61,753 nucleotides of DNA from Candidatus Auribacter fodinae (GCA_003599815.1 QZJZ01000015.1:1-61753); one strand, 5' to 3'; counted from the stretch's first letter, positions 22,055-60,106 are shown. The notes: generated by a model from the sequence alone, not told the origin. Translations and numbers: made by a program.

Positions 22055-22065
22055 GAAACACAGTC

Positions 22066-22476
22066 ATGAATGATCAGCTACGCCTTCTCCTTGAAATAAA
22101 ATATTGTCTCGAGCATATTGCCGCGATCGGTGAAGAGCAGTCGCGTGAAATTGTTCAGGGAAATGCTGCTCAATTGAATACATTGCTTGAACGGAAAGAT
22201 GAACTTATACGCAGGATTCGTGAACTCTACAAGACGCTTAATAGTCAATTAAGCAGAGGCTCATTGAAACATCCTGATATTGCCGAGGTGTTGTCGGAAA
22301 TTGACACGTTAACCGGCAGAATCATCAAAGATGAACATAAAAGTTTGCACAAAACTATGTGCCGCAGACAGAAAGTGAATATCCTGCTTCATCAGGCATC
22401 AAATGGAAAGAAGGTGTTGGATTCATATGTCCGTCTGTCTCGGAAAAAGAAATCGGATTTGCACTGGAAGGGATAA
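22066..22476 (+). CDS. FlgN-like flagellar export chaperone (probable)
   Basis: 136 residues, all helical. The N terminus LRLLLEIKYCLEHIAAIGEEQSREIVQ followed by LNTLLERKDELIRRIREL matches the FlgN pattern (leucine-spaced helix, reQ-x-I-V-x-N/D, then a charged Leu-rich helix). FlgN proteins hold hook-filament junction proteins or filament subunits before export. The call rests on pattern only, because the family is weakly conserved; FliT-like chaperones are an alternative. Start ATG 22066 (AGGA upstream) is used instead of ATG 22039 inside the previous gene. It ends the sugar operon and is immediately followed by a sigma-28-type promoter that overlaps its stop region. Confidence 0.6.
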   Translation: MNDQLRLLLEIKYCLEHIAAIGEEQSREIVQGNAAQLNTLLERKDELIRRIRELYKTLNSQLSRGSLKHPDIAEVLSEIDTLTGRIIKDEHKSLHKTMCRRQKVNILLHQASNGKKVLDSYVRLSRKKKSDLHWKG

Positions 22477-22538: not shown

Positions 22539-22946
22539 ATGGGCTGGGCAAAAGTTTTACTGGTAGATAACGAACCGAAGTACCAAAGGCACCTTTCAAC
22601 ATTTCTGCGAATGTTTGATTATAAGGTATTCGTCGCCGCAAATGGACTGGACGGGCTTGATAAAGTCCAGCAGGAGCGTCCTGATATTATTATCATGGAT
22701 CCCGTTTTGCCGGTAAAGGATGGAATATCACTATTTCAGGAGATGAAAAGGGATAAGAATCTGAACTCCATTCCTGTTGTAATGCTGGTTACCTCGGGCG
22801 AACAGACCGATGTCGTTAGACAGCCGGGAGTAAGCGGGTTTGTGGCTAAAACATCACGTCTGGTTGATATTGAAAAACGTATTCGTCATATTGTTGAGGA
22901 TAAACGGTCGCAGAAGGAAAAAGCCGTTCATCATCGCTCAGAATAA
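22539..22946 (+). CDS. Single-domain response regulator (atypical CheY-like)
   Basis: 135 residues, one receiver domain and a basic tail. The acidic pocket is reduced to D-N-E (LLVDNEP at 7-13), the phosphoacceptor is the Asp in IIIMDPVLP (about residue 54), the switch residue is Thr in MLVTSGE, and the conserved Lys is in FVAKTSRL, where the usual Pro after Lys is Thr. It may still be phosphorylated, but its output surface differs from CheY. With a sigma-28-type promoter and a PP2C phosphatase in the same operon, it is a candidate signal input to partner switching or a motor-binding protein. Confidence 0.8.
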   Translation: MGWAKVLLVDNEPKYQRHLSTFLRMFDYKVFVAANGLDGLDKVQQERPDIIIMDPVLPVKDGISLFQEMKRDKNLNSIPVVMLVTSGEQTDVVRQPGVSGFVAKTSRLVDIEKRIRHIVEDKRSQKEKAVHHRSE

Positions 22947-22968
22947 TTTTTAAGGAAACGCAAGTTAT

Positions 22969-23226
22969 ATGGACCACATTGTAAAAAAGCAAAATTTAAC
23001 AGTTCAGAAATCGGCCGAAAAAAGCAAATTTGAGCAGATGCAGAAAATAGTGAAAAAAGATTGCGTCATTTTTGAGGAAACGCCCTTTAATGTTAATAAA
23101 TCACTGAACAAAAAAACAATAACCGACGCGGAAGTAATACTTAGAAAAAACGGAGATGTATTGACTTCTATTGAAGTTATATGCCCCTGCGGAAATAAAA
23201 TAGAGATTTTATGCCAGTATGATTAA
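22969..23226 (+). CDS. Small conserved-looking protein with C-terminal CPCG motif
   Basis: 85 residues that I do not recognise. The first 55 are Lys-rich and polar; the end reads VICPCGNKIEILCQYD, three cysteines that could hold a metal or act in redox. AAGGAAA about ten bases upstream of ATG 22969 and an 8-base overlap with the PP2C gene (which starts at ATG 23219 inside its last codons) indicate a real, coupled gene. No signal peptide or membrane segment. A link to the PP2C phosphatase is inferred from coupling only. Confidence 0.65.
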   Translation: MDHIVKKQNLTVQKSAEKSKFEQMQKIVKKDCVIFEETPFNVNKSLNKKTITDAEVILRKNGDVLTSIEVICPCGNKIEILCQYD

Positions 23227-24529
23227 TACGCAATATACTCATTCCCAGATGAATTGCCAGGATACTTTACGTGTTCTGGTTGTGTCGTTTAAACCCGGGG
23301 AAGAGATGCGGAAAGTTTCGTTTTTAAATAATCGGCTTTCCCGTATAGATGTATTCAAATGGAATCCTCTTATTACAGAGACGCCGGAAGGCGCTTATGA
23401 TATGGTCATAATATATTCGCCCTTTCCCCGTCAGTCCTATCTTTCAAAATTACGGGAGTTGACAACACGAATAGAGCCTGCCGTAAGAGCGGTATTCGGT
23501 GTTTTTGACAATATCGACCCTGAAGAAGCGGTAACCCTCCTAAGCGGCGATTTTTATGATGTGCGCATTATTCCCTCGTCGCCGGAAAAGTTTTCACAAT
23601 GCATTCTGACATGGTACGATTTGTTTCGCAAAGACCTGCTTGGCATGTTGCAGAAAAAGCGCGAACATTATTGGAAAAAGAAAGCCGTGAGAAGGCGGTC
23701 TGCTATTCATAATGAGTTTAAATTGTTGAATCAGAGAATATGCGGGATGCAGGAACAGCTTCAGGCTCTTAATTTATGGCAGCAGGGAAGCAGGCTTGAC
23801 CGCGAATTAAAAATTGCCCACAATATTCAGCTGGGGCTTTTACCAAAGAAGATTCCATGCATATCCGGTTTTGAATTTGATGCGGAATACCAGCCTGCAC
23901 GAGAAATAGGCGGTGACTTTTTCGACTTTTTTCGTATTAGTAAACATAAACTTGGCTTTATAATAGGCGACGTGGCAACCCGAGGTATACCTGCGGCGTT
24001 AATGATGACTCAGATTCGAGGGATGTGGCGTGCGCTGATGAATACGAGTATTTCGCCCCGTTCAGTGGTTTCCAGATTGAATTACCTGCTTCATCAGGAT
24101 TTCAAAAAGATGTGGGGGATGTATGTATCTGTTTTTTGTAGTGTGGTTGACCTGAAAGAAAAGGTCATTACCTACACAAATGCCGGGCACTGCTACCCCG
24201 CTGTGTATCGTGCGTCTGATGATTCCTTTACCGAATTGAAAGAAGGCGGAGCTGTTCTTGGAGTATCACATAAAACGTATTATCGCGAGCAGGCGTTTTC
24301 ATTGATGCCGCAAGACCTCGTTGTTTTTTATACGGATGGCATCACAGAGTCTCATACACGGCCGGATGCCTTGTTTGGGAAGGATACCTTGTATGCAATT
24401 ATACGTCATCAGGCGGGTAACGCTATATCTGATATTAAATCATCGGTTTTTGCTGAAATCGATGGCTTTTTAGGCACATCCGATTTTCATGATGATAAAG
24501 CTTTAGTTTTATTAAAATATAAACCGTAG
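23219..24529 (+). CDS. PP2C/SpoIIE-type serine phosphatase with degenerate receiver domain
   Basis: 436 residues. Residues 17-135 follow the receiver pattern (LRVLVVS, YDMVIIYSPFP, VRAVFGVFD, YDVRIIPSS), but the acidic pair, phosphoacceptor Asp and Lys are replaced, so it looks like a pseudo-receiver. A coiled-coil linker (about 140-190) leads to an RsbU/SpoIIE phosphatase: IGGDFFD at 230-236, GDVATRG at 250-256, NAGHCYP, VFYTDGITE and a terminal DDKALV. It should dephosphorylate a STAS protein; the STAS gene 12 bp downstream is the obvious substrate. No kinase of the HATPase type is in this sub-operon. Confidence 0.87.
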   Translation: MINTQYTHSQMNCQDTLRVLVVSFKPGEEMRKVSFLNNRLSRIDVFKWNPLITETPEGAYDMVIIYSPFPRQSYLSKLRELTTRIEPAVRAVFGVFDNIDPEEAVTLLSGDFYDVRIIPSSPEKFSQCILTWYDLFRKDLLGMLQKKREHYWKKKAVRRRSAIHNEFKLLNQRICGMQEQLQALNLWQQGSRLDRELKIAHNIQLGLLPKKIPCISGFEFDAEYQPAREIGGDFFDFFRISKHKLGFIIGDVATRGIPAALMMTQIRGMWRALMNTSISPRSVVSRLNYLLHQDFKKMWGMYVSVFCSVVDLKEKVITYTNAGHCYPAVYRASDDSFTELKEGGAVLGVSHKTYYREQAFSLMPQDLVVFYTDGITESHTRPDALFGKDTLYAIIRHQAGNAISDIKSSVFAEIDGFLGTSDFHDDKALVLLKYKP

Positions 24530-24541
24530 CAGGAGGATCAA

Positions 24542-24859
24542 ATGAAAATTACGTCCGAAGAACTGTCAGGCACAGCGTTGGTTTACAGGATTGCAGGGAA
24601 AATTAATCTTGAAAGTTCATCACAGCTAAAACAGGAAATCAAAGAAGGTTACGAAAGCGGAGCAAAAAAAGTATATCTTGATTTTGAGCACGTTGACTAC
24701 ATGGATACGTCCGGGCTTGGTTCGCTTATCAGTATACTGAAGCAAGCACGCAAAAATGAGGTCGAACTGGTTATTGTTAAGCCTTCAGGGTTTATTAAAG
24801 GATTATTCCGGTTAACAAAAATGGACAGGATTTTTACGATTCAGGAAGATCTGGCATAA
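24542..24859 (+). CDS. STAS-domain anti-sigma factor antagonist
   Basis: 105 residues, SpoIIAA/RsbV-like. The phosphorylation loop MDTSGLG puts Ser57 (or Thr56) at the regulatory site, preceded by the beta strand VYLDFEHVDY. In partner switching, the dephosphorylated form binds a kinase or anti-sigma partner. AGGAGG precedes the ATG. It directly follows the PP2C phosphatase that should activate it. Its binding target is not identified here; the HATPase domain encoded at 30312 is one candidate, flagellar regulators another. Confidence 0.9.
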   Translation: MKITSEELSGTALVYRIAGKINLESSSQLKQEIKEGYESGAKKVYLDFEHVDYMDTSGLGSLISILKQARKNEVELVIVKPSGFIKGLFRLTKMDRIFTIQEDLA

Positions 24860-24896
24860 CAGTTTGTAGGTGCCTCTGAACCGGGAATGTGACTAA

Positions 24897-25955
24897 ATGG
24901 CGGAACAGAAACAGACTGATTCAACAGCAAAAGAAAAAAAAATAAAGGCTAAAGTTAAAAAGCCGGTCAATAAATCGGCAGAAAAACAGTCTTCTCCGCA
25001 GGAGCTTAACTCGAATAAGCTTTTTTGTAACACGACAATAACTACTGTGGTGGGGCGTTTTACTGCGTATATGCTGCTGCTCGGCATTTTGTTGACTGTT
25101 GACTACCCTGATTACATTCGTTTTATGGCGTCGGTCAGTATTATTTTTATTGCTCTTGCCTCAAATTTTTACTTGCTTTTAGCTCAGAACCTTAGGCCGA
25201 TTGTAAAAAATTACCTTCGTGGGGCGCTGGCTATTTTTGACACAGGCATAATTACATTGCTTATATTTATTCAGGGGAGTTCGCTTAATGCGATCATCCT
25301 TATGTATCCGATTCTTACATGGACGTATTCCTTTAACGGTATTAACCTCGCTTTGCTTTGCGTATTTTTGTTCAATATGGTGTTCTACTACATATCTGGT
25401 ATAATGTTTAACCCGGTCGGAATATTTACCTTCAACATATACATCGGTATTGCAGTTCATCTTGGGCTTGTATTATGGATATTTTCTTTCAGCGGGCTGT
25501 TTAAGCTTGCCAATAAAAAATACAGTTTGGGCTATCGTTTCATTGAGTATATGGAAAAAGTACTGGATTTCCTGCCGGATTCCATCTCTTCTAAATTACA
25601 GTTATTTTGCCAGACAAAAAACTTCAGGATTCTTGAAGATGAATTTAGGAAAAAAGCTTCCGAATTGATATCGATTATACAGACCAAGGAGGCTGAAATC
25701 TGCCTCTACAAGGAACACCTTGAAACGTTAAATTCCACTGATGAACCTGATGAAGATATAGAAATGGCATTTAGCGAGATCAATTCTCTGCTGGAGATGG
25801 AAAACCTCACCCTCAAGGAAGCCAATAAAAAACTTACCGAGACAAACAAGGATCTTGAAGAGCGCATTAACACGCTCAGCGAGGAACTGGAAATCGCTAA
25901 TGTCGAACTGGAGCGCATTTATTCCTCTATGCAGGATTCGACCAAGGATAGTTAG
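24897..25955 (+). CDS. Membrane protein with C-terminal coiled coil, unknown function
   Basis: 352 residues. A Lys-rich cytoplasmic N terminus (1-45) is followed by five to six transmembrane helices (about 52-210) and a long charged coiled coil (about 245-345, rich in Leu-x6-Leu heptads such as NLTLKEANKKLTETNKDLEERINTL). No catalytic motif is visible. The layout is that of a membrane anchor or sensor without its output domain. It is the last gene of the sigma-28 unit; the following 287-bp gap holds a degenerate repeat and no clear terminator. I do not recognise the family. Confidence 0.75.
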   Translation: MAEQKQTDSTAKEKKIKAKVKKPVNKSAEKQSSPQELNSNKLFCNTTITTVVGRFTAYMLLLGILLTVDYPDYIRFMASVSIIFIALASNFYLLLAQNLRPIVKNYLRGALAIFDTGIITLLIFIQGSSLNAIILMYPILTWTYSFNGINLALLCVFLFNMVFYYISGIMFNPVGIFTFNIYIGIAVHLGLVLWIFSFSGLFKLANKKYSLGYRFIEYMEKVLDFLPDSISSKLQLFCQTKNFRILEDEFRKKASELISIIQTKEAEICLYKEHLETLNSTDEPDEDIEMAFSEINSLLEMENLTLKEANKKLTETNKDLEERINTLSEELEIANVELERIYSSMQDSTKDS

Positions 25956-26242: not shown

Positions 26243-27787
26243 GTGCAGCGTAAAGATGATGGCGTAATGGTTTTTGATTTTCTCAATCAGCTTGAATCAA
26301 TGTCATCTTCTGGCGGCCAACATGCATCGATAGAGCAGAATTTATGTTCAGTTCTGGTCAATGCACTTGGTATCAAGAAATTAGCCGGTATTAAAGTGTA
26401 CATAAACTCAGGGATAGTTATTGATTACCGGACAGGGTATCAGGATATTGAACTTCAAAGTATAAAAAACTATCTGACTGACAATACGTGCCCGGAGCTG
26501 AACGATTCGTTTTCTCAATGGGACAATACAGGTATGCCCGAAGTATACGCTCTCAAAATTGTCGGAGATGAGTTTTTTTATGTTCTCATTGCATCTATGG
26601 AAACGCCCCCTGCTCTTTCCACGCAGGCAGTGATTACATCAGTTGTTGATGCATTAAAAACTGTGGTTCGTTCCGATTCATATAACCAGCCCCTCATTCA
26701 GCAGTTTAATGATCTTGTACTGAATAATATCGTCAGCGGCATAATTGTGATAGATAAGGATTCCGTAGTGCGGTTTATTAATCATGCCGCTGAGATGATC
26801 TTAGGCTACCGTCCTGTGGAACTCATTGGACAGCAGTGCGGCATGTTGTTCAGGGAAATTGACCGTGACCAGAACTGGTTGTCCTTTACTTTAACCACCG
26901 GCGCTCAGTCGATGCGGACAAAAATAGTCATGATGCGAAAAGACGGCATTGAAATAGCCGTGGGGGGCACTGCATCGCTACTGAAAAATATGGCTGGTGA
27001 AATCCTTGGCGTCATCGGAATTTTTAGAGAATACGAGGATTACGAATCTGATCAGAGATTCAAAAAAGAACTCAATAAAATGTCTACGCTCTCAAAATTG
27101 TCCGCAAGCATAGCTCATGAGATACGCAACCCGCTGGCAGGAATAAGCGCTACCGCACAGGTTCTTGCAGGGAAGTTTGAAGCGGACGACCGGAGACAGC
27201 GATTCGTTACAGTTATTCTGGAAGAGATCGACCGTATTAATCGAATCATTAAAGAATTGCTCAATTTTGCGAGTCCCTCTAAAGCCTCTTTTCTTCAATC
27301 TAATATCAATAAGATACTGGAACACGCTCTTGATTTACTCCACAAAAAAATTCAGAAACAAAATATTGAGGTTGTGCGTGAATATGACCGTGACCTTCCT
27401 GACATATTATGTGATGAGAACCAGCTTAAGCAGGCAGTGGTCAACATAATGATGAACAGTGTGGGAGCAATGCCGGAAGGAGGCATGATAACAGTTGTTT
27501 CCGAACGAATAACCGTGAATTCCGAAGATTGGATTCAGATTGTGATACAGGATACCGGGTCAGGAATACCAAAAGAAGTTCTTCAGGAGTTGTTTACACC
27601 GTTTACAACGACAAAGACACAGGGGTTAGGCCTTGGTCTGACCATAACAAAAAATATTATTAAAACGCACCGTGGTAAAATTACCGCGGAAAACATCGAA
27701 GGAAGAGGAGCTCGCGTGGTGGTGAAACTGCCCGTAAAAATTGTACCTCTTGATACTGAAGAACAACCGTTTTTGCCCTTCGAGTAA
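26243..27787 (+). CDS. PAS-domain sensor histidine kinase, NtrB-like
   Basis: 514 residues, no transmembrane segment, so probably cytoplasmic. Residues 1-150 form an uncharacterised GAF-like region, then PAS (about 155-262), HisKA with His292 in SIAHEIRNPLAG, and HATPase (N box QAVVNIMMNSVGAMPEGG, G1 DTGSGIP, F box FTPFTTTKTQGLGLGL). It should phosphorylate the sigma-54 activator encoded 24 bp downstream. GTG 26243 has AAGGAG five bases upstream. The input signal is unknown. Confidence 0.9.
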   Translation: MQRKDDGVMVFDFLNQLESMSSSGGQHASIEQNLCSVLVNALGIKKLAGIKVYINSGIVIDYRTGYQDIELQSIKNYLTDNTCPELNDSFSQWDNTGMPEVYALKIVGDEFFYVLIASMETPPALSTQAVITSVVDALKTVVRSDSYNQPLIQQFNDLVLNNIVSGIIVIDKDSVVRFINHAAEMILGYRPVELIGQQCGMLFREIDRDQNWLSFTLTTGAQSMRTKIVMMRKDGIEIAVGGTASLLKNMAGEILGVIGIFREYEDYESDQRFKKELNKMSTLSKLSASIAHEIRNPLAGISATAQVLAGKFEADDRRQRFVTVILEEIDRINRIIKELLNFASPSKASFLQSNINKILEHALDLLHKKIQKQNIEVVREYDRDLPDILCDENQLKQAVVNIMMNSVGAMPEGGMITVVSERITVNSEDWIQIVIQDTGSGIPKEVLQELFTPFTTTKTQGLGLGLTITKNIIKTHRGKITAENIEGRGARVVVKLPVKIVPLDTEEQPFLPFE

Positions 27788-27811
27788 ATATGAATTGTGG
27801 AGGTCTTATTT

Positions 27812-29251
27812 ATGCCTGCGACTGTTTTGATCGTAGATGATGAGTCATCAATAATATTTTCACTGAGCGAAGCAATGCAAGATGCGGGATACAGAACTCT
27901 TACTGCAACACGGGGAGAAGAGGCTATACGCGAGGTGAAAGAATCGTCTCCTGACATTGTCCTGCTGGACATGAAATTGCCTGATATTGACGGACTGAAA
28001 GTATTAAAACAGATAAAATCTCATGTACCGGAATTGCCCGTCATTATGATGAGCGCTTATGTTGATGTGGCAACTGCTGTGCAGGCAACCAAAATCGGGG
28101 CAGTCAATTTTATCGAGAAACCCCTGAATATTGAAAAAATTAAGATCGATGTAAATAATACGCTTAAAAACGTCGATGTTCTTAAACAGCTCGATTCAGT
28201 CAAAACCGAACTTGAGCAGTTCAAGGAAATTGAACGGTTGCGCCAGAAAGTCCAGAATCCTCTGGATGCTATTCTTGGTAATTCCAAGGCAATCCGAGAC
28301 ATGAAAAAAACCATAAAAAAAATTGTAGACAGCAGTGCTACCACTGTGCTGGTTCAAGGTGAAAGCGGAAGCGGAAAGGAACTCGTCGCACGCGCTATTC
28401 ATTACGCCAGTAACCGCAAAGATAAACCATTTATTGATGTGAACTGTACCTCCATTCCTGATGAGCTTCTTGAAAGCGAGCTGTTCGGACATGAAAAAGG
28501 CGCTTTTACCGATGCAAAAAAAGAGAAAAAAGGACTCTTTGAACTTGCCAACGGCGGAACCTTGTTTCTCGACGAGATTGGCGATATGAAATTTTCTATG
28601 CAGGCGAAGTTACTGCGGGTACTGCAGGAAAAGTTTTTTAAGCGGGTTGGCGGCACAAAAAATATCAATATTGATGTACGCATTGTTGCCGCAACCAACA
28701 AGGATTTATTAAAAGAAGTGGAAAAAGGCAATTACCGTGAAGACTTATACTATCGCTTGAATGTTATTCCGATCTATTGCCCTCCGCTTCGCCAGCGTGG
28801 TGACGATGTTATTCTTCTCACCAAATCGTTTGTTGAGCATTTTAACAAACATTTCGGCAAAAATGTGACCAATATAGATTCCCGGGCTGAAGAACTGCTT
28901 CTATCATACTCATGGCCTGGAAATGTTCGTGAATTGCGTAATATTATTGAACGGGCGATTTTGCTGGAAAGCGAAGACGTATTATTGCCTGAACATCTGA
29001 GCATAACGCCGTCAGCTTCTTCTGTTGCCGCGAGATTGGATGATGATGAGGAGGAAATAACCCTTTCAGACGCAGATTTCGACGGTGAACCGGAATTTAA
29101 TGAAAGCTGGACACTTGACGATATGGAAAACTGGTTTATCCAAAAGGTGCTTGTTAAATACAACTGGAATAAAAACCTCGTAGCTAAGAAACTTGGCATT
29201 AACCGGACAACGCTTTATACTAAAATCAAGAAATACAATCTCGAACGGTAG
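27812..29251 (+). CDS. NtrC-family sigma-54 dependent response regulator
   Basis: 479 residues. Receiver (Asp53, Lys near 103), a linker coiled coil, AAA+ domain with Walker A GESGSGKE at 183-190, and a Fis-type helix-turn-helix at the C terminus (NKNLVAKKLGINRTTLYTKIKKY). The sigma-54 contact loop reads GAFTDA (230-235) instead of the usual GAFTGA; this single change is seen in some active family members but is worth noting. The real start is ATG 27812 after GGAGGT; an upstream in-frame GTG at 27797 overlaps that ribosome site. A sigma-54 promoter lies 122 bp after its stop and is a likely target. Confidence 0.92.
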   Translation: MPATVLIVDDESSIIFSLSEAMQDAGYRTLTATRGEEAIREVKESSPDIVLLDMKLPDIDGLKVLKQIKSHVPELPVIMMSAYVDVATAVQATKIGAVNFIEKPLNIEKIKIDVNNTLKNVDVLKQLDSVKTELEQFKEIERLRQKVQNPLDAILGNSKAIRDMKKTIKKIVDSSATTVLVQGESGSGKELVARAIHYASNRKDKPFIDVNCTSIPDELLESELFGHEKGAFTDAKKEKKGLFELANGGTLFLDEIGDMKFSMQAKLLRVLQEKFFKRVGGTKNINIDVRIVAATNKDLLKEVEKGNYREDLYYRLNVIPIYCPPLRQRGDDVILLTKSFVEHFNKHFGKNVTNIDSRAEELLLSYSWPGNVRELRNIIERAILLESEDVLLPEHLSITPSASSVAARLDDDEEEITLSDADFDGEPEFNESWTLDDMENWFIQKVLVKYNWNKNLVAKKLGINRTTLYTKIKKYNLER

Positions 29252-29372: not shown

Positions 29373-29388
29373 TGGCATAATTATTGCT
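29373..29388 (+). promoter_or_regulatory. Sigma-54 promoter of the LysM/HsbR-like operon
   Basis: TGGCATAATTATTGCT: GG at 29374-29375 and GC at 29386-29387 with ten bases between, an almost perfect TGGCAC-N5-TTGC. The predicted start near 29399 is downstream of an in-frame TTG at 29384 and so supports ATG 29432. A short dyad, CGTGT-N11-ACACG at 29292-29312, lies about 60 bp upstream, where an activator could bind. Confidence 0.8.
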
Positions 29389-29431
29389 TCAACTGCAACT
29401 GTTACTTTTTACAAATGAGGTGAAAATAAGT

Positions 29432-30301
29432 ATGAAAAGATCAAATTCCTATCTATTGATGGTAAGTTTTTTCGCAGTTTTTTTTGCCGTGCCTTCTGAT
29501 ATTGTGTCGCAGGATGACAATTTCGGTATGGGTGATGAATCTCAACAACAGTCCGCTCCTGCTTCCTCAGGTTATCTTGAGGAAGGCGCGCCGATTTATG
29601 GCATAGAGGCTGAACAGCAGCCTGTCGATTCTCCCCTTGCGGAAATTCGTATGCTGAAAAAACAATATTTTCGGGAAGTAAAACGTCGGGAAGAACTTGA
29701 ACAAATGAACGCTACGCTCAGCCAGCAGATCGAGGAGTATAAAATACTTCTGGCCAAACGGGATGAAACGATAGACGAACTGAAACGACGGCTGGTTGAG
29801 GCTGAGTTTAAGTATGTTGCCTTGGAACAGAAACTTACCAATATAAAACTGGCAATTTTGCGCAAGAAACTTATACGCGAGTCGCAATACCCTCCATTTT
29901 ACGAAGTCAAGAAAAATGACAGTTTATGGAAGATAGCTGGCCGGAACAAGATATACGATAATAATTACAAGTGGCAGGAGATTTACTATGCCAATCAGGA
30001 AAAGATTGCTGACCCTGATTACATCTATCCTGGAATGGTGCTTAGAATACCTCGCCCGGAACTTGAATACGAAGACTGGACAGCTGATGGGCTGGATCTT
30101 GATAAGGCATCAAAATACATTAAAGGTATTCACGCAGGTGACGTAAATATTTCGACCGAAAATATTGATAAGGTTATGCAGGAATTCGCAAATGAACTGA
30201 TTCCCGGATATGGCCAGCAATTTGACAATGAAGGGAATGTTATTCAGGAACCTGTTGAAGAATTGCCTGGCAACGATATACGTGATCAGACAAATGAATG
30301 A
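29432..30301 (+). CDS. Exported coiled-coil LysM protein
   Basis: 289 residues. Signal peptide (SYLLMVSFFAVFFAVPSDIVSQ, about 6-27), a coiled coil (about 80-150), then one LysM domain (about 160-205: YEVKKNDSLWKIAG ... PDYIYPGMVLRIP), which binds peptidoglycan glycan strands, and an acidic tail. GAGGTG stands nine bases before ATG 29432. It is the first gene of a sigma-54 operon that continues into a partner-switching module, which suggests an envelope role tied to flagellar assembly or cell-envelope stress. No catalytic domain. Confidence 0.85.
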   Translation: MKRSNSYLLMVSFFAVFFAVPSDIVSQDDNFGMGDESQQQSAPASSGYLEEGAPIYGIEAEQQPVDSPLAEIRMLKKQYFREVKRREELEQMNATLSQQIEEYKILLAKRDETIDELKRRLVEAEFKYVALEQKLTNIKLAILRKKLIRESQYPPFYEVKKNDSLWKIAGRNKIYDNNYKWQEIYYANQEKIADPDYIYPGMVLRIPRPELEYEDWTADGLDLDKASKYIKGIHAGDVNISTENIDKVMQEFANELIPGYGQQFDNEGNVIQEPVEELPGNDIRDQTNE

Positions 30302-30311
30302 GGAATCTGTT

Positions 30312-31856
30312 GTGTCCAGAATTTTGATAGTTGATGATGAAAAAGCGATTGTTTTTGCCCTTGAGGAAGCATTGCTTGACGACGGGTATGACGTCAGAAC
30401 TGCACATTGTGCTGAAGATGGGCTCGACCTTTTTAAAGACGCGCCTGCTGATGTTGTTCTTACCGATATGAAAATGCCTGGAATGTCAGGTATAGAGTTA
30501 CTTGGAAAAGTAAAAACGATTAAACCAGATACTATGGTGGTTATCATTACTGCCTATGGCACTTTTGATTCCGCGGTGGAAGCCGTACGGCTGGGGGCTT
30601 TTGATTATATTCAGAAACCCTTTAATATACAGGAAGTCAAGCAAATCATTCGCCGTGCGATTGCTGAGCTCAACGTTGACATGACTGCGAAACCTGCTCT
30701 TTTTCAGCCTGTTCAGGCGCCGCTCGACATCAGGGAACGAATTCTTTCCGGTGGGGAATCCCTGTCTGGTGCGGTATCTATAAATGTTAAGTCAATACCT
30801 CTGGAAGGCATAGGTGCTGATTTTTATGATTATTTTCCTGTTGAAAATGGGAAGATCGTGATTACGATCGGGGATGTCAGCGAAAAAGGTGTTGACGGGT
30901 CTTTCATCATGATAATGGTGAAAAGCCTAATTCGTTCTGAAGCGAGCCATTCCGAGAATCCGTCCGAAATATTGACTCGTGTTAATACTCATATTCGAAG
31001 TCAGGGAGCGACTGTTCCTATTACTATTTTTCTCGGTATACTCGATATCACGTCCGGAACATTGGAGTATGTTAATGCCGGACACGAACGTCCGTTATTT
31101 TACCAGCAGAACGGAATACTTAAGCCGCTCGCAGAAAACGGGACATTTATCGGTTTATTTGATAACCCGTCATACGAGCCAGTTACTTTATCACTGAATA
31201 ATCAGGACACACTTCTTTTTTTTACAGATGGGCTTATTCGGGCGGTGGAACATAAATTTACCGGACAGAATCCCTATGATATCCTTGAGTCGGTAGTACT
31301 CCATTCTGCAGAGCAACAACATTATCGGCTGGCTGATTATCTTTACAGCACATTTATAGAGAACAGCTCTTCCCTTGATGATGATATAGTCATCCTGTCG
31401 GTATGCCTTAATAGCGAACTTGTTCGAGAAAAAGAAGTTGTATGTGCGTGTGATAAAGACTCGCTGGTACTTGTTCGATGTGCCGCTGAAGAAGTCCTGA
31501 GGGGCATACCAGTTGCAAACAATGACAGGCATGCAGTGTTAACCGCTTTGTATGAGGGAATGATTAATGCGCTTGATTTCGCATATCCTGAACGAAATCC
31601 GGGGGATGTACGTGTACTCTTTTCATATGATGATACCAAGCTTGCAATTCATATAGAAGATTATGGTGTCGGTTTTGATCTTGGAACATATGTTCCGCCT
31701 GATAGCGAAACATATTCAGGATTGGTAAAAGACCGGGGCAGGGGGATATTCCTGATGAGAAATCTTATGGATTCTGTCCGTATTGATACTGCGCCGGGCA
31801 AAGGAACATGCCTCATTCTTGAGAAAACGCTGGCAAACTCTGGTGCGGAGAAGTGA
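30312..31856 (+). CDS. HsbR/CrsR-like switch protein: receiver, PP2C phosphatase and HATPase kinase domains
   Basis: 514 residues. Receiver at 1-120 (Asp52), PP2C/SpoIIE phosphatase at about 155-365 (GADFYD with Asp170, GDVSEKG from 186, NAGHERP, FFTDGLI, terminal DD at 356-357), and an RsbW-like HATPase at about 375-510 (Asn419 in EGMINALDFAY, DYGVGFD at 450-456, GRGIFLMRN). One polypeptide thus holds both the phosphatase and the kinase for a STAS partner, with the receiver setting the balance, as established for HsbR of Pseudomonas and CrsR of Shewanella. The partner gene follows after 4 bp. GTG 30312 with GAGGA is preferred over ATG 30294, which lacks a ribosome site. Confidence 0.88.
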   Translation: MSRILIVDDEKAIVFALEEALLDDGYDVRTAHCAEDGLDLFKDAPADVVLTDMKMPGMSGIELLGKVKTIKPDTMVVIITAYGTFDSAVEAVRLGAFDYIQKPFNIQEVKQIIRRAIAELNVDMTAKPALFQPVQAPLDIRERILSGGESLSGAVSINVKSIPLEGIGADFYDYFPVENGKIVITIGDVSEKGVDGSFIMIMVKSLIRSEASHSENPSEILTRVNTHIRSQGATVPITIFLGILDITSGTLEYVNAGHERPLFYQQNGILKPLAENGTFIGLFDNPSYEPVTLSLNNQDTLLFFTDGLIRAVEHKFTGQNPYDILESVVLHSAEQQHYRLADYLYSTFIENSSSLDDDIVILSVCLNSELVREKEVVCACDKDSLVLVRCAAEEVLRGIPVANNDRHAVLTALYEGMINALDFAYPERNPGDVRVLFSYDDTKLAIHIEDYGVGFDLGTYVPPDSETYSGLVKDRGRGIFLMRNLMDSVRIDTAPGKGTCLILEKTLANSGAEK

Positions 31857-31860
31857 TGCC

Positions 31861-32271
31861 ATGGGTATACGCGTTAATAAAAATGACAAAGCGGTGATTT
31901 TAAATGTCCTTGATGATGTTATCCTTGATACTGTTCAGGAAATACAAAATGAGGTCAATATCCTGATTAAAGAAAGGCTGTGCTGTATTGTGATGGATCT
32001 GTCAGCGATAGAATTTATTACCAGCAGGGGATTAGGCGCTGTCGGCAAGGCGATGGATGCATTACGCAAACAGGGCGGAGACCTGAAACTATGCGGTCTG
32101 AAACCGGAGGTACGCGGTATTTTTGATATATGCGGACTTGCGAAGATTATAGATATATACGATAACCCCGGCGATGCTGTAAATAGTTTTGGCGCAAGTG
32201 TCAGCGCGGTTGAAAAACGCCTGCTTTGGAGTATAAAACCTCATGAAGATACAAATTCCACTTCAGAATAA
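31861..32271 (+). CDS. STAS-domain protein, HsbA-like partner of the upstream switch protein
   Basis: 136 residues. STAS core with IVMDLSAIEFITSRGLGAVGKAMDAL. The phosphorylation loop reads T54-S55-R56-G-L-G, so the residue directly before GLG is Arg; Ser55 or Thr54 would be the phosphosite. A C-terminal extension of about 30 residues follows the STAS fold. Start ATG 31861, with GGAG upstream; a longer in-frame opening lies in the previous gene. In Pseudomonas the equivalent HsbA binds either the anti-sigma factor FlgM or a diguanylate cyclase, linking motility and c-di-GMP; whether this one does so is inference. Confidence 0.85.
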   Translation: MGIRVNKNDKAVILNVLDDVILDTVQEIQNEVNILIKERLCCIVMDLSAIEFITSRGLGAVGKAMDALRKQGGDLKLCGLKPEVRGIFDICGLAKIIDIYDNPGDAVNSFGASVSAVEKRLLWSIKPHEDTNSTSE

Positions 32272-32956
32272 GTTTAATAAACAGTTGATGTATCATGCTA
32301 TTGGTATACTCGTGCTGGTAGTCATGTTGTGTGCTGTGACGCTGCCTACTCTTTATTATATCCGTTATAAAAACGGGGCATTGTTGGATTCTTCTCAAAT
32401 TAAACTATATAGTTATGAACAGTTTGAACTTGATTTAGCGGAAGCCGGAGAGTTTCTCGAAAGAGGATTATACGATAACGCCATAATACTGCTGAGAGAA
32501 TCGGCGCGTAATTCGCTGAAGCGGTATTTTGCGGCGGAAGCTCTCACCCGGATAGCGGATTTGCTTTATTCTTCAGAGGAAATTCAAAATCAGGATCGCT
32601 ATGTGCAGGCACTGGAGTTTTATGGTGTGGCAATGAGTTTTTCCGAAGACCAGCAGGCACGGATTTGGAAATCGTTTCAGATAGCCAACTGCCACTTTAA
32701 AACATCGAGCATTGATAGTGCAATTGCATTATACAAGGATTTCATCAATAAATATCCTGACTCGGAATATTGTGTTGATGCACAATTGAACTTGGCATCT
32801 TTATATTTAAAACGTAACAAGTTCTCGCTTGCGCGCGAAACACTGCAGGTGGTGTTGAACACGGCGGTATCGGAAAAACAGTTTTCTTTAGCAGTGTTTC
32901 AATTGGCTAATTCGTTTATGCAGGAATCTGAAAAGGAAACAATCATATATCAATGA
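32243..32956 (+). CDS. Membrane-anchored TPR-like protein
   Basis: 237 residues. One N-terminal transmembrane helix (about 17-40) leaves the rest outside the cytoplasm. From residue 55 it is helical repeat (FLERGLYDNAIILLRES, ADLLYSSEEIQNQD..., ANCHFKTSSIDSAIALYKDFINKYPDSE), typical of TPR/Sel-like scaffolds. It overlaps the STAS gene by 29 bases and the next TPR gene by ATGA, so all three should be made together. The start has no good ribosome site. Function unknown; possibly an envelope scaffold. Confidence 0.75.
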   Translation: MKIQIPLQNKFNKQLMYHAIGILVLVVMLCAVTLPTLYYIRYKNGALLDSSQIKLYSYEQFELDLAEAGEFLERGLYDNAIILLRESARNSLKRYFAAEALTRIADLLYSSEEIQNQDRYVQALEFYGVAMSFSEDQQARIWKSFQIANCHFKTSSIDSAIALYKDFINKYPDSEYCVDAQLNLASLYLKRNKFSLARETLQVVLNTAVSEKQFSLAVFQLANSFMQESEKETIIYQ

Positions 32957-34725
32957 TTAAATCCGTTCGATTATTAACTCTACTTGTCTTATGTTTCTTC
33001 ATAACCTGCAGGGAGGTATCTCTTCATGCTGATGATGAGAGTGTCACGCATGAACACCATCAGGAACTGTCCAACGATTCTCTCGATCAGTCATTATCCG
33101 CAAAAAAAACACGTTTGGTGTCCATAACCAGCGAAGAATTCATCTTTAAAGATATTCCTGATTATATTGTGGCTAACGCGAAACGAAAGTTCCTGCAGGA
33201 ACGGGCAATTGTACTGTATGAGTATTATATACGTGAATTTCCTGATGGAGAGTTTTACTCAAAGGCGCTTTATAATGTGGCGAATCATTATTTTCTCAAG
33301 AAAAATTATACGGAGGCGATGTCGCATTACAAAGACTACATAAAAGCTGAGGGAATAGAGGGGCATACTCAACAGGCGCGCTTTAATGTGGGCATGTGCC
33401 TGATGGAAGCAAATCAGTTCGAAGAGGCTATACCCATTTTTAATCAGGTGCTGGATTATTATACACTGAGCGATCTTCATTTTCCTGCCTATAAACAAAT
33501 TGCAGAGTGTTATAGTAAATTGAATGATGACAAACGGCGTATCATGACATATGAAAATGCCGCGGGCTTCTTCACTGATCCCAATATAAGGGCAGAGTGT
33601 TATATCAGAATTGCTGATGCTATGATGAATAAAAAACAGTATTATGATGCGGTCTGGTATCTTAAACAGGTTAGTGAACGATTTAAGCAAAGCAAATTCT
33701 ATTTTGAATCGCTTTTCCTTATGGGCGAATGTTACGAATTCAGCGGCGAACTAAAACAAGCACAGGCATCTTATCAGCAGATTGTCCAGGATCATTCCTA
33801 TGACAATGATTTCCAAGAAAAAGCACTTTATGCTCTAGGCTACTCATTGTACAAGGAAGAGAATTATAAAGACGCTTCCATTACTTTGTACACAGCAATA
33901 AAAAAGTATCCATCGTATTCGGGATTGAACGATGCGCTGTTTAAACTGGCGGAATGTTATATGCAGTTATCGCTGCCTGACTTGGCGTATGATATTTACA
34001 CAGAGCTCAGTAACAAACGGCTTCATTTCAAAAGAAAAAATACGATTTTGTTTCGGCTTGGCGAACTGAATTATAAACGTAAGGATTATTCCTCTGCAAT
34101 TGAAGTATTTCAACGCATTAAACTGATTAATGACAAAACCATGGATGACCAGATAACTTTTTATGTCGGCATGTCGCATTATTATATGGAAGAGCACCGG
34201 TCCGCCTTTGAAAAATTTTTGCATTTGAAACATCAGGCCGCCGATACACAAATTGTTGTCGAATCACTATATATGCTCGGCAGGATTCTGATTGATGTTG
34301 GAAAATTTGAATCTGCAGTGCCTTATTTTGAAGAATGTATAGCAAATGTCAACAGTATTATTGAAAATAAAAACACTGAAGTATCCGATCAGCCTACCGA
34401 AACAGTTATTACGCCTGAAACAATAGCGTTTTTCAGATCTATCAAGCAGAAAGCACTTTATGCATTGGGAAACGCTTTTTTTAAACACGAAATGTATAGC
34501 AATGCGGCTCAATATTATCAGCAAATTGATAATTATGAGCTCTCCTCACATGATCGGGCATGGCTTTTGTATAACATAGGTAAATGTTATGAACACACAA
34601 GGGATTATGACAACTCAAAAGTGTATTATAACAAGGTCGTAACCCTGTATCCCGAGATAGACATTGCACAACAGGCCGCATGGGATTTGAAGAATATTCA
34701 ATGGAAGGATAGGTTCTCTAAATAA
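32953..34725 (+). CDS. Exported TPR-repeat protein (periplasmic or outer-membrane scaffold)
   Basis: 590 residues. Signal peptide (MIKSVRLLTLLVLCFFITC); the Cys at 19 is not preceded by a convincing lipobox. Residues 65-585 are tetratricopeptide units of the BamD/YbgF style (repeated YPD/FPDGEFYSKALYNVANHYFLKKNYTEA pattern, about twelve copies). Such proteins hold outer-membrane or cell-division complexes. It starts inside the stop of the preceding TPR gene (ATGA). Together with the LysM protein it surrounds the partner-switch genes, suggesting an envelope assembly under sigma-54 control. The specific partner is unknown. Confidence 0.8.
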   Translation: MIKSVRLLTLLVLCFFITCREVSLHADDESVTHEHHQELSNDSLDQSLSAKKTRLVSITSEEFIFKDIPDYIVANAKRKFLQERAIVLYEYYIREFPDGEFYSKALYNVANHYFLKKNYTEAMSHYKDYIKAEGIEGHTQQARFNVGMCLMEANQFEEAIPIFNQVLDYYTLSDLHFPAYKQIAECYSKLNDDKRRIMTYENAAGFFTDPNIRAECYIRIADAMMNKKQYYDAVWYLKQVSERFKQSKFYFESLFLMGECYEFSGELKQAQASYQQIVQDHSYDNDFQEKALYALGYSLYKEENYKDASITLYTAIKKYPSYSGLNDALFKLAECYMQLSLPDLAYDIYTELSNKRLHFKRKNTILFRLGELNYKRKDYSSAIEVFQRIKLINDKTMDDQITFYVGMSHYYMEEHRSAFEKFLHLKHQAADTQIVVESLYMLGRILIDVGKFESAVPYFEECIANVNSIIENKNTEVSDQPTETVITPETIAFFRSIKQKALYALGNAFFKHEMYSNAAQYYQQIDNYELSSHDRAWLLYNIGKCYEHTRDYDNSKVYYNKVVTLYPEIDIAQQAAWDLKNIQWKDRFSK

Positions 34726-34746: not shown

Positions 34747-34935
34747 ATGAAAGTTACTATTGAGCGAAACAAAGTTCACTGCCCATGCATCAACACTACT
34801 ATCAACCACATGGAATGCAACGATGAATGTGCGTATTTCAAGGGATGTGCGATAATTGAAAACCAGTTCACAATCAGTTGCTCTTATTCGCTGAAACAGA
34901 AATTGACAAATGAACGGACTCCTGTTTGTTCATAA
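34747..34935 (+). CDS. Cysteine-rich mini-protein
   Basis: 62 residues with seven cysteines at 12, 14, 24, 28, 34, 45 and 61 (HCPC ... ECNDEC ... GCAII ... SCSYS), a spacing suitable for metal binding. GGAGAG upstream of ATG 34747, a position between two same-strand genes, and a 27-base pair arrangement with the next reading frame support a real gene. No signal peptide. I do not recognise the family. Lying before a FlgN-like chaperone and the FlgS/FlgR-like pair, it may be a small flagellar regulator, but this is speculation. Confidence 0.55.
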   Translation: MKVTIERNKVHCPCINTTINHMECNDECAYFKGCAIIENQFTISCSYSLKQKLTNERTPVCS

Positions 34936-34948
34936 GAGGGCTTTTACC

Positions 34949-35368
34949 ATGATAACAAGGAAAGACACTCCGATTGTAGCTTTTATTGATCATCTCAATA
35001 CACAGAAATCGCTTTATGAGCAGATACTCATCCTGTCTGATCGGGAGTCGGGTATAATAAAGTCAAAACCTTTTTCCATGGCACGGGTTCTTGAAGTGCT
35101 TCAAACTAAAAACACGCTGGTTACCCGGATACAGGTGATTGAACAGCAATTAGCTGAACAACGGTGCCAGATTGATTTTAACGATATATCCGTTTCATTG
35201 AAAGAGGAAATTTCAGGACTGATTCAATACATTGGGTCATTATTGCGGAAATTATTAGCGCAGGACTCTGCAAATGAGGAAATGCTCAGAGAATGTGTGT
35301 GTTCAGGAAATAAACCGACAGTTAATACTCACTATGCAATGAAAGCGTATGGGGCGTATGCAAAATAA
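34949..35368 (+). CDS. FlgN-like flagellar chaperone (probable)
   Basis: 139 residues, helical. The pattern IDHLNTQKSLYEQILILSDRESGIIKS followed by LEVLQTKNTLVTRIQVIEQQ matches FlgN-type chaperones, and the C terminus (HYAMKAYGAYAK) resembles the Tyr-Gly end found in that group. ATG 34949 after GAGGG is chosen; an ATG at 34910 lies in the previous gene. The gene overlaps the histidine kinase by 20 bases. With the similar protein at 22066 the window may hold two specialised export chaperones. Weak family conservation limits confidence. Confidence 0.55.
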   Translation: MITRKDTPIVAFIDHLNTQKSLYEQILILSDRESGIIKSKPFSMARVLEVLQTKNTLVTRIQVIEQQLAEQRCQIDFNDISVSLKEEISGLIQYIGSLLRKLLAQDSANEEMLRECVCSGNKPTVNTHYAMKAYGAYAK

Positions 35369-36746
35369 CCTGAATGACACTCACACTTTAGAAGCCCCTA
35401 TCGCACAACTAGAGGATGCATTCAAATATTTTACCCTCACTACTGACCGCCTGACCAACGCGTATAACAAGCTCGAGGAAGAATTTTCGAATATTAATGT
35501 TGAACTCGAACATAAAAACGCTGAACTTAAACATAAAATCGAAGAAGTTGATCATATTCGCGGGCATCTCGAAAATATTCTGCAGAGTATGTCTACCGCT
35601 GTTATAGCGGTAGATCTCAGGAAGCGGATTACCCTTATAAATACAGCGGCGGAAAATTTGCTTGATGTTTGCGGAAATGACTACATCGGACAGACAGTGG
35701 AATCAGTACTGAAAATGGAAAACTTCTCAGTTGATCTTCTATTCCAGAGTGTTGCAGATGCTTCTGTCATAAATGAGCACGAAACAGAGATACTGTCATC
35801 ATCCTCACTGAAAATTATTGCAGGCGTAAGTGTCTCAGCCATAAAGGCAAGTAATAATATTGCTATTGGCTATATGCTTTTAATCAGAGATTTGCGTGAA
35901 ATTAAACGCCTTGAGGAAAAAGCGCGGCGGGCTGACCGTCTTGCGTCTCTGGGCGAAATGGCGGCGCGGGTAGCCCATGAAATACGCAACCCGCTCGGCG
36001 GAATTGAAGGGTTTGCTTCTCTTCTGGCGCGGGTTTTGGAAAATGACGAAAGTAACCGTCCCCTTGCGCAATATATTATTGACGGGGTCAGGAGTGTGAA
36101 CCATATTGTGACCAGCCTTCTTGATTACGCCCGTCCTGTGTATTGCACGAAGAATTACTTTAAAATTGATCACATCCTGCGCGAAATATCGCTGATGAGT
36201 TCCAATGCGGGGATTGAATACCCGGTTTCTTTTGGTATTGAAAAAGTTTGCCGTGAAATTAATCTGATGTATGCTGACCGCATACTTGTTCAGCAGGTTA
36301 TATGGAATCTTATCATGAACAGTATGCAGGCAGTAAAACCGCAGGGTAAAGTCCGGCTCGTCTATGATGTTCGGGGCCCTATTAAACAATCCGTTGATTC
36401 ATCGCTCCTCTATTTTTGTCGTGACCTGAATGGGGATGACGATGAGTTCTTTTATCCATACAGTTTAAATCACATGTATAATGGCGTGCCGCCGGATATT
36501 CACTACTGGCATGCGTTAAGCGTTGTTGATAATGGAGAAGGCATACCCGCGAGCGTTCAGGATAAAATATTTTATCCCTTCTTTACTTCAAAAGAGAACG
36601 GGACGGGACTTGGATTATCGACAGTATATAAAATCGTTGAAGAACATGGTGGAAAAATCGGGGTGCGGACAGAATCGGGTCGTGGAACATTTATTACCGT
36701 ATACCTCCCCGGTCATGCAGAAATACAGGAGGGGGCTGTAATATGA
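35349..36746 (+). CDS. FlgS/FleS-like flagellar histidine kinase
   Basis: 465 residues, soluble. N-terminal coiled coil (about 35-75), PAS (about 75-185), HisKA with His210 in VAHEIRNPLGG, and HATPase with QQVIWNLIMNSMQAV, VVDNGEGIPAS and FFTSKENGTGLGLSTVYKIV. An insertion of about 40 residues separates the N and G1 boxes. Soluble PAS kinases next to an NtrC-type regulator control the sigma-54 flagellar regulon in Campylobacter, Vibrio and Pseudomonas. Starts at ATG 35349 or ATG 35358 are possible; neither has a clear ribosome site. Its stop overlaps the regulator as ATGA. Confidence 0.88.
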   Translation: MGRMQNNLNDTHTLEAPIAQLEDAFKYFTLTTDRLTNAYNKLEEEFSNINVELEHKNAELKHKIEEVDHIRGHLENILQSMSTAVIAVDLRKRITLINTAAENLLDVCGNDYIGQTVESVLKMENFSVDLLFQSVADASVINEHETEILSSSSLKIIAGVSVSAIKASNNIAIGYMLLIRDLREIKRLEEKARRADRLASLGEMAARVAHEIRNPLGGIEGFASLLARVLENDESNRPLAQYIIDGVRSVNHIVTSLLDYARPVYCTKNYFKIDHILREISLMSSNAGIEYPVSFGIEKVCREINLMYADRILVQQVIWNLIMNSMQAVKPQGKVRLVYDVRGPIKQSVDSSLLYFCRDLNGDDDEFFYPYSLNHMYNGVPPDIHYWHALSVVDNGEGIPASVQDKIFYPFFTSKENGTGLGLSTVYKIVEEHGGKIGVRTESGRGTFITVYLPGHAEIQEGAVI

Positions 36747-38143
36747 CCATAGACAGAGTATTAATCGTTGATGATGAAATTCTGATGCGACGGTTTCTTG
36801 AGGAAACACTGGAACGGTTGGGTATCACTGTTGACAGCGCTAAAAATGGGTTTGATGCTATTGACCTGCTGGAAGATACTGAGTACGACATGGTGTTTAC
36901 TGACATCAATATGCCTCAGATGAACGGTATTGAAGTGCTGAAACGGGTTAAGGGACAATACCCGGCGGCTGAAGTCATTGTGATGACAGCGTACGGCACT
37001 ATCGAAACAGCTGTGGAAGCCATGAAGGTCGGTGCGTTCGATTATATCCTGAAACCGTTTTCAATTGACCAGATTGAGCTTATCTTGAAGAAGGTTCAGG
37101 AGCGTAAGCGGCTTATCAACGAGAATACGTACCTTAAAAAAGAGCTGAATGACAAATACCGGTTTAATGATGTCATCGGAACCAGTGGTTGTTTTCAGCA
37201 GATTCTTGATACGGTCGAAACAGTCGCCGCCTCACGCGCGACAGTCCTGATACAGGGCGAAAGCGGTACTGGTAAGGAAATGATTGCTCACGCTGTGCAT
37301 AAAGCCAGTGACCGGGCGAATGGGCCCTTTATCAGACTAAACTGTGCCGCAATGCCTGAAAATCTGATGGAAAGTGAATTGTTTGGACATGAAAAGGGCG
37401 CGTTTACAGGAGCGCATAATAAACGGCTTGGGCGGTTTGAACTTGCCAATGGCGGCACAATCCTCCTTGATGAAATATCCGAAATTCCTCCGAGCCTTCA
37501 GGCAAAACTCCTGCGGGTTATACAGGAACGTGAGTTTGAACGTGTCGGCGGAGAGAAATCCATTAAGGTCGATGTGCGAATTATCGCTACAACCAACCGT
37601 AACCTGATACAGGCTGTCAGAGCTGGTGAATTTCGCGAGGATTTGTATTATCGTCTTAACGTAGTGCCGATTGTTCTTCCACCATTGCGAGAGCGTCCTG
37701 ATGATATCGAGGAACTGGCTCAGTATTTCGTTGACAAATACTGTAAGGAAAATGGTGTTCCTTCGTTCAATTTAAAACAAGCCGTACTGGATAAGTTGAA
37801 AAGCTACTCATGGCCGGGTAATGTTCGTGAACTGGAAAACGTAATTGAACGATCTGTCGTTATGAGGCGCGATACAATCATCATGCCTGATGAGATCGGC
37901 ACTGGCGAAACATTGGCGACAACGTATTCTCACGATAAACAGCAGGCAGGCGTTCAGGTAGGCACTACAGTCCGGGAAATGGAAAAAATGCTGATTTTTG
38001 AAACACTGAAATCAAATTGCTGGAATAAAACTAGAACTGCGGATGTTCTGCAAATCAGTATACGCACCTTGCGGAACAAATTGAATGAATACCGCCAGAA
38101 TCAGGAAATACCCGACGAATATATGGTGTTAGTAGCCAGTTAA
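36743..38143 (+). CDS. FlgR/FlrC-like sigma-54 activator of flagellar genes
   Basis: 466 residues. Receiver with Asp54 and Lys104, AAA+ domain with Walker A GESGTGKE at 172-179 and the canonical sigma-54 loop GAFTGA at 219-224, then a Fis-type helix-turn-helix (NKTRTADVLQISIRTLRNKLNEY). Coupled to the kinase by an ATGA overlap and followed by a terminator. It is the prime candidate for activating the sigma-54 promoters ahead of flgB, fliF, fliK and the sugar operon; the other NtrC-type protein (27812) is the alternative. Confidence 0.92.
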   Translation: MTIDRVLIVDDEILMRRFLEETLERLGITVDSAKNGFDAIDLLEDTEYDMVFTDINMPQMNGIEVLKRVKGQYPAAEVIVMTAYGTIETAVEAMKVGAFDYILKPFSIDQIELILKKVQERKRLINENTYLKKELNDKYRFNDVIGTSGCFQQILDTVETVAASRATVLIQGESGTGKEMIAHAVHKASDRANGPFIRLNCAAMPENLMESELFGHEKGAFTGAHNKRLGRFELANGGTILLDEISEIPPSLQAKLLRVIQEREFERVGGEKSIKVDVRIIATTNRNLIQAVRAGEFREDLYYRLNVVPIVLPPLRERPDDIEELAQYFVDKYCKENGVPSFNLKQAVLDKLKSYSWPGNVRELENVIERSVVMRRDTIIMPDEIGTGETLATTYSHDKQQAGVQVGTTVREMEKMLIFETLKSNCWNKTRTADVLQISIRTLRNKLNEYRQNQEIPDEYMVLVAS

Positions 38144-60099: not shown

Positions 60100-60106
60100 T
60101 GTCCTC

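Follow-up and report, generated by a model that had tools for sequence, protein, structure and literature searches.

What does a partner-switching pair control when it is encoded among flagellar genes, in one operon with envelope proteins? The question is raised by a locus in the window analyzed here, a whole contig of 61,753 bp from a genome of 3.54 Mb that is 92% complete. The first-pass annotation of this DNA had described it as a HsbR/HsbA-type switch under sigma-54 control in a flagellar regulatory block. The reading that we favor, and consider fairly probable, is that of a partner-switch pair in a sigma-54-timed flagellar operon that acts in a way similar to HsbR-HsbA, was assembled separately in one family, and lies within a wider operon frame.

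Five tightly packed genes, all on the + strand, occupy positions 29432-34725. The first one (29432-30301) encodes a LysM protein of 289 aa with a predicted signal peptide, a coiled-coil-like region, and a LysM domain at 157-207 (Pfam E-value 3.5e-10, together with hydropathy and conservation); the sequence GAGGTG is located a short way 5' of its ATG. The second gene (30294-31856) encodes a protein composed of a receiver (Response_reg, 2e-28), a PP2C phosphatase (SpoIIE/PP2C, 1.1e-34), and a HATPase_c_2 domain (1.9e-21). Its start codon is the GTG at 30312, with GAGG just 5' of it, or alternatively the ATG at 30294. A STAS protein of 136 aa (31861-32271; Pfam STAS, 4.7e-18; NCBIfam ant_ant_sig) is encoded exactly 4 bp past the stop codon of the enzyme gene, and the remaining junctions overlap or almost touch. 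The last two genes encode TPR proteins identified by Pfam, conservation, and hydropathy: one of 237 aa with an N-terminal membrane anchor (32243-32956) and one of 590 aa with an N-terminal hydrophobic or signal segment (32953-34725). Open reading frames and Pfam searches thus bear out the three-domain gene with its adjacent STAS partner and an operon led by a LysM gene and closed by two TPR genes, as had been annotated, but the unit does not end at 32271; with both TPR genes included, it extends to 34725.

Upstream of the LysM gene, a sigma-54 (-24/-12) promoter box, TGGCATAATTATTGCT, was found at 29373-29388 on the + strand, and 43 bp separate its end from the LysM ATG. With 16.2 bits it is the highest-scoring sigma-54 site of the window, and in shuffled sequence the same matrix scan yields about 0.1 site per window at 16 bits or more, these bit scores being relative because the matrix is an approximation. 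The box had been called near-perfect; it is indeed the best site in the window, but with 10 of 12 consensus positions matched the description was slightly generous.

To place the operon in context, the flanking genes and the corresponding regions of two sister genomes, G001 and G002, both of the same family (f1), were compared. On the 5' side, and again on the + strand, Pfam and synteny identify a PAS histidine kinase (26243-27787) and an NtrC-type sigma-54 activator (27797-29251). On the 3' side there are genes for a FlgN-like protein that scores under the Pfam cut-off and is assigned with the help of synteny (34910-35368), a FlgS-like sensor kinase (35349-36746), and a FlgR-like sigma-54 activator (36743-38143), the latter two supported by Pfam and NCBIfam, all on the + strand. 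The same gene order is present in both sister genomes, with an identity between the enzymes of 51-55%. In G001 the synteny begins with a GGDEF gene (1657 in the window), glycan genes, a second switch set, and the histidine kinase-NtrC pair, and goes on with LysM-enzyme-STAS-TPR-TPR, FlgN-FlgS-FlgR, PMT, ApbE, and FlgB-FlgC-FliE-FliF-FliG; the contig of G002 is short and covers NtrC to FlgR. In both sister genomes the top sigma-54 site of the scanned stretch is also located directly 5' of LysM (17.5 and 17.0 bits), and further sites at positions matched in G001 lie 5' of 13425, of 16429, and of FliK (48341, the hook operon). Both sister genomes contain rpoN; a search of the window's own assembly, which is incomplete, did not recover it, and rpoB and rpoC likewise had no match there. 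By comparison of RpoB and RpoC, the family falls close to Omnitrophota and Lentisphaerae, the RpoC tree being badly resolved. Box, gene order, and FlgN-FlgS-FlgR flank are therefore all conserved, and the placement in a flagellar regulatory block holds; the neighborhood that the relatives share retains its flagellar genes.

The genome contains three FlgN-like or FlgN-placed genes: two in the window, at 22039-22476 and 34910-35368, both just under the Pfam cut-off, and one at L133 3143-3652, called FlgN from its position 5' of FlgK. Where the flagellar block ends, a PocR-domain hybrid histidine kinase is encoded on the - strand (58129-61249) beside a FIST-domain protein.

Residues expected in the active sites were inspected in an alignment of the enzyme from the three genomes, numbering from codon 30300, and no loss was seen. 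Invariant are D12, D13, D56, T84, and K106 of the receiver; D174/D177, D192, D310, and D361/D362 of the PP2C domain; and E419, N423, D454-x-G456-x-G458, G480-R-G482, and G500-K-G502 of the HATPase domain. The catalytic roles of these residues were assigned from family knowledge and are presumed to apply here. In the STAS protein, Ser55 (codon 32023-32025) is invariant in the three genomes, lies within the motif TSRGLG, and falls in the alignment column of the SpoIIAA acceptor, which we take to be the phospho-acceptor position; nearly all other STAS proteins compared have serine at this position. The C-terminal tail, EKRLLW, is also conserved. Among PDB entries, structures of SpoIIAA and RsbV match a model of the STAS protein that has a pLDDT of 73 and is weak beyond residue 112; the AlphaFold model of the full enzyme is poor (pLDDT 59). 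The general features of a partner switch are thus all present, namely a PP2C phosphatase, a GHKL kinase, and a STAS protein with an acceptor Ser/Thr. Because the catalytic residues and the predicted phospho-serine are invariant, and because order, box, and FlgN-FlgS-FlgR flank are conserved, the pair is expected to work as a phospho-switch within a flagellar operon timed by sigma-54. Elsewhere in the genome, a STAS paralogue (L049; G000:C24:21312-21617) carries YIDSRGLG and thus the same S-R-G motif as the STAS protein of the window.

In the proposed mechanism, the HATPase domain would phosphorylate Ser55 of the STAS protein and the PP2C domain would take the phosphate off, with the balance being set by phosphorylation of the receiver, either from the histidine kinase at 26243 or from FlgS. 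Over its whole length the receiver of the enzyme is closest to that of FlgR (53 of 122 residues, compared with 43 of 125 in the case of the NtrC protein at 27797), whereas its helix 1 is nearer to that of the NtrC protein (8 of 18 residues, and 10 of 18 when the G001 copy is used) than to that of FlgR (6 and 3, respectively). The first receiver helix carries much of the specificity for the kinase. With a receiver that is FlgR-like overall and NtrC-like in its first helix, both kinases are input candidates. Under sigma-54 control, the switch would appear only after assembly of the basal body licenses FlgSR, by analogy with Campylobacter, in which FlgSR turns on the sigma-54-dependent rod and hook genes once the complex of MS ring, rotor, and export apparatus has formed (PMC7064773). 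The likeness to the FlgS-FlgR/sigma-54 programme of Campylobacter and Helicobacter consists in the FlgS- and FlgR-like pair and in the sigma-54 boxes 5' of the hook (FliK-FlgD-FlgE) and accessory operons.

We then asked how the pair is related to HsbR-HsbA of Pseudomonas aeruginosa and CrsR-CrsA of Shewanella oneidensis. With HsbR-HsbA it shares the receiver-PP2C-HATPase protein, an adjacent STAS protein with a phospho-serine, and the proximity of flagellar genes (PMC5085249, PMC6482189). In P. aeruginosa, hsbA, hsbR, and hptB adjoin flgM (PMC5085249), so that a HsbRA-type switch beside flagellar genes is in itself not new. As comparators, seven receiver-PP2C-HATPase proteins of 565-607 aa, picked by architecture and not HsbR or CrsR themselves, were taken from a 229-genome sample from the class of one named gammaproteobacterium. 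Proteins of 560-590 aa with a GAF-PP2C-HATPase architecture (encoded beside STAS and Mla genes) or a HDOD-PP2C architecture were dropped as comparators, since their domain architecture was wrong.

In all seven comparators the HATPase domain contains a long insert that is missing from the protein of the window. In four of them (L220, L228, L229, and L232) a STAS gene of about 100 aa lies upstream and has the motif DS(S/A)(A/G)LGMLL, whereas here the STAS gene lies downstream and has the motif TSRGLG. In a PP2C tree of 65 rows, the f1 enzymes and the comparators stand apart, and a constraint to a single clade was rejected (AU p about 3e-16; branches are long). True membership in the HsbR-HsbA/CrsR-CrsA group, with transfer into the phylum, would agree with the identical three-domain order and the adjacent STAS gene, and the HATPase tree, poorly resolved with a support of 82/83 on long branches, leaves room for such a grouping; given the rejected PP2C clade, the missing insert, and the differing gene order and STAS motif, we regard it as very unlikely. 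Since insert, gene order, STAS motif, and PP2C tree differ, the recipe is common but at least the PP2C ancestry is separate. Of the annotated HsbR/HsbA type, therefore, the domain recipe with its adjacent STAS protein stands and the kinship does not; judged on these sequences, the label holds only as an analogy, that is, as a likeness by mechanism and not by descent.

Measured against these architecture-matched comparators, the present pair also differs from HsbR-HsbA in the EKRLLW tail of its STAS protein, in its LysM and TPR partners, in the sigma-54 box, and in having no adjacent target gene. CrsR-CrsA has the same domain recipe, with a third domain in CrsR that is a kinase and anti-sigma factor, but its target is RpoS, within the general stress response, and the difference in ancestry is as for HsbR. 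RsbU/RsbW/RsbV and SpoIIE/SpoIIAB/SpoIIAA likewise combine a PP2C phosphatase, a GHKL kinase, and a STAS antagonist, to which the structural matches of the STAS model correspond; unlike in those systems, phosphatase and kinase are here fused to a receiver, in an operon that contains no sigma gene. No report of a receiver/STAS phospho-switch within a sigma-54 flagellar operon was found in the literature searched. Our findings suggest that the receiver-PP2C-HATPase/STAS recipe for motility control arose more than once, and such a switch is now placed in a sigma-54 flagellar operon alongside LysM and TPR envelope proteins.

To learn how far the arrangement extends, the genomes of the phylum were surveyed. 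The full PP2C-HATPase enzyme is present in 3 of 44 genomes, all of family f1 (E-values of about 1e-213 to 1e-226; next best 1e-41), and a search of genome contigs with the full-length enzyme profile yielded receiver-domain matches and no whole-protein relatives. The LysM-HsbR-HsbA-TPR-TPR order, for which a survey had been proposed, was recovered in G001 and G002, but in other families the receiver protein has no recognizable PP2C or HATPase domain. There, a LysM homologue precedes the gene for a receiver protein that measures about 450-480 aa (G007 and G022 of family f6, G015 of family f10), and domain searches and profile comparison revealed no PP2C or HATPase remnant in its C-terminal part. 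After the receiver gene, G007 and G015 contain a small gene and then giant TPR/coiled-coil proteins. The small gene of G015 gives a STAS match of 6e-7 with the family's profile, and in that of G007 hardly more than the tail is recognizable; the STAS-like proteins of f6/f10 are highly divergent, and the tail EK..LLW is retained across the families. A sigma-54-like box precedes LysM in all five genomes with upstream sequence, including G007 and G022, where it outscores every other site in the stretch (12.9 bits each). In G007, whose contig is the only long one among these, the block continues over about 25 kb through TPR genes and on to FlgS, FlgR, FlgB, FlgC, FliE, FliF, FliG, FliH, and FliI.

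As judged from these comparisons, the recurrence of a LysM-receiver-STAS-like frame in two other families, behind a sigma-54-like box wherever upstream sequence is available, is a new observation. Because the frame recurs in f6/f10 without recognizable PP2C and HATPase domains, the enzymatic switch belongs to one family, within a wider operon frame, and with a STAS-like protein this divergent the operon can exist without an enzymatic switch; the enzyme was either added to the frame in f1 or lost in the other families. The giant TPR/coiled-coil proteins of G007 (L294 11304-18843) measure 1,710 and 796 aa and follow the receiver-STAS-like pair immediately. LysM homologues linked to FliG and MotAB in f8/f11 were left out of the frame count and may belong to another LysM family. 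These families encode FliG-domain proteins of about 690 aa (FliG_C, FliG_M) with MotA and/or MotB (L299 8402-11482; L297 5073-8949), and in L299 the FliG-domain protein lies directly 3' of a LysM protein, in an unusual motor-like cluster.

The wider frame bears on what the switch acts upon. The STAS or the receiver protein might dock on the LysM and TPR proteins of its own operon, as part of a flagellar landmark or assembly checkpoint with no sigma factor involved, which is possible but not what we would expect. Such a role in assembly or placement would fit the persistence of the frame in f6/f10 where the catalytic domains are unrecognizable, the giant TPR proteins next to it in G007, the box 5' of LysM in every genome with upstream sequence, and the retained STAS tail; it would leave the intact kinase and phosphatase machinery of f1 superfluous if the role were purely structural. 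FimV/HubP proteins unite LysM and TPR within one protein, whereas here the two lie in separate genes. Rather unlikely is the broader proposal that a sigma-54 envelope operon of several families (LysM, receiver, STAS-like, TPR), with a receiver-STAS core, directly steers flagellum assembly or placement, with the STAS protein acting on the assembly machinery instead of a sigma factor, and the enzymatic phospho-switch of one family having been gained there or lost elsewhere. As the frame occurs both with the catalytic domains and without them, it offers a natural comparison of whether STAS proteins in flagellar clusters target sigma factors or assembly.

In the favored partner-switch reading, one form of the STAS protein would bind a regulator. 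This regulator would most plausibly belong to the late flagellar programme, FlgM or some other anti-sigma factor being examples. There is no target gene next to the switch. FlgM and FliA are encoded elsewhere in the genome, FlgM on another contig, G000:C2, and since both are present, a FlgM-type output is possible. HATPase_c_2, the domain matched by the enzyme, is of the RsbW/SpoIIAB type. Alternatively, then, the HATPase domain could itself be the anti-sigma factor, as in SpoIIAB, RsbW, and CrsR; it would then sequester FliA or some other sigma-70-type factor until the unphosphorylated STAS protein releases it. The third domain of CrsR/HsbR, which binds RpoS, provides a precedent (PMC6482189), and the genome contains FliA and other sigma-70 family matches; the operon, however, lacks a sigma gene, and binding cannot be read from sequence, and we consider this output unlikely.

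The phosphorylated form of HsbA activates HsbD. A corresponding output to c-di-GMP, in which the phosphorylated STAS protein would activate the response-regulator diguanylate cyclase at 1657-2604, seems hardly probable: the GGEEF motif of that gene is intact and its position is syntenic in G001, but the gene lies 27 kb away, has a receiver domain of its own, and is surrounded by metabolic genes. Analysis of the window gave no evidence linking the switch to c-di-GMP or to this gene.

A second switch set is located 6 kb upstream, at 22539-25955, and comprises a receiver protein, a PP2C phosphatase, a STAS protein, and a polytopic membrane/coiled-coil protein. The phosphatase (23219-24529, + strand; Pfam, hydropathy, and synteny) has an N-terminal region without a Pfam match and no kinase domain, and the STAS protein (24542-24859, + strand; Pfam and alignment) carries Thr in place of the acceptor serine. 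G001 retains the PP2C, STAS, and membrane proteins. The set encodes no HATPase-type kinase, and as it has none of its own, the HATPase domain of the protein at 30294 would be the nearest candidate kinase, which is an inference only.

Two further loci of the genome, L138 (G000:C60:9659-10267) and L139 (G000:C102:4724-5362), contain sigma-70-like domains within open frames of about 2,200 aa that carry more HTH-like stretches and appear to encode giant sigma-like proteins. The polytopic membrane/coiled-coil protein of the second set fits no known family, and its counterpart in G001 measures 619 aa and has a long N-terminal extension.
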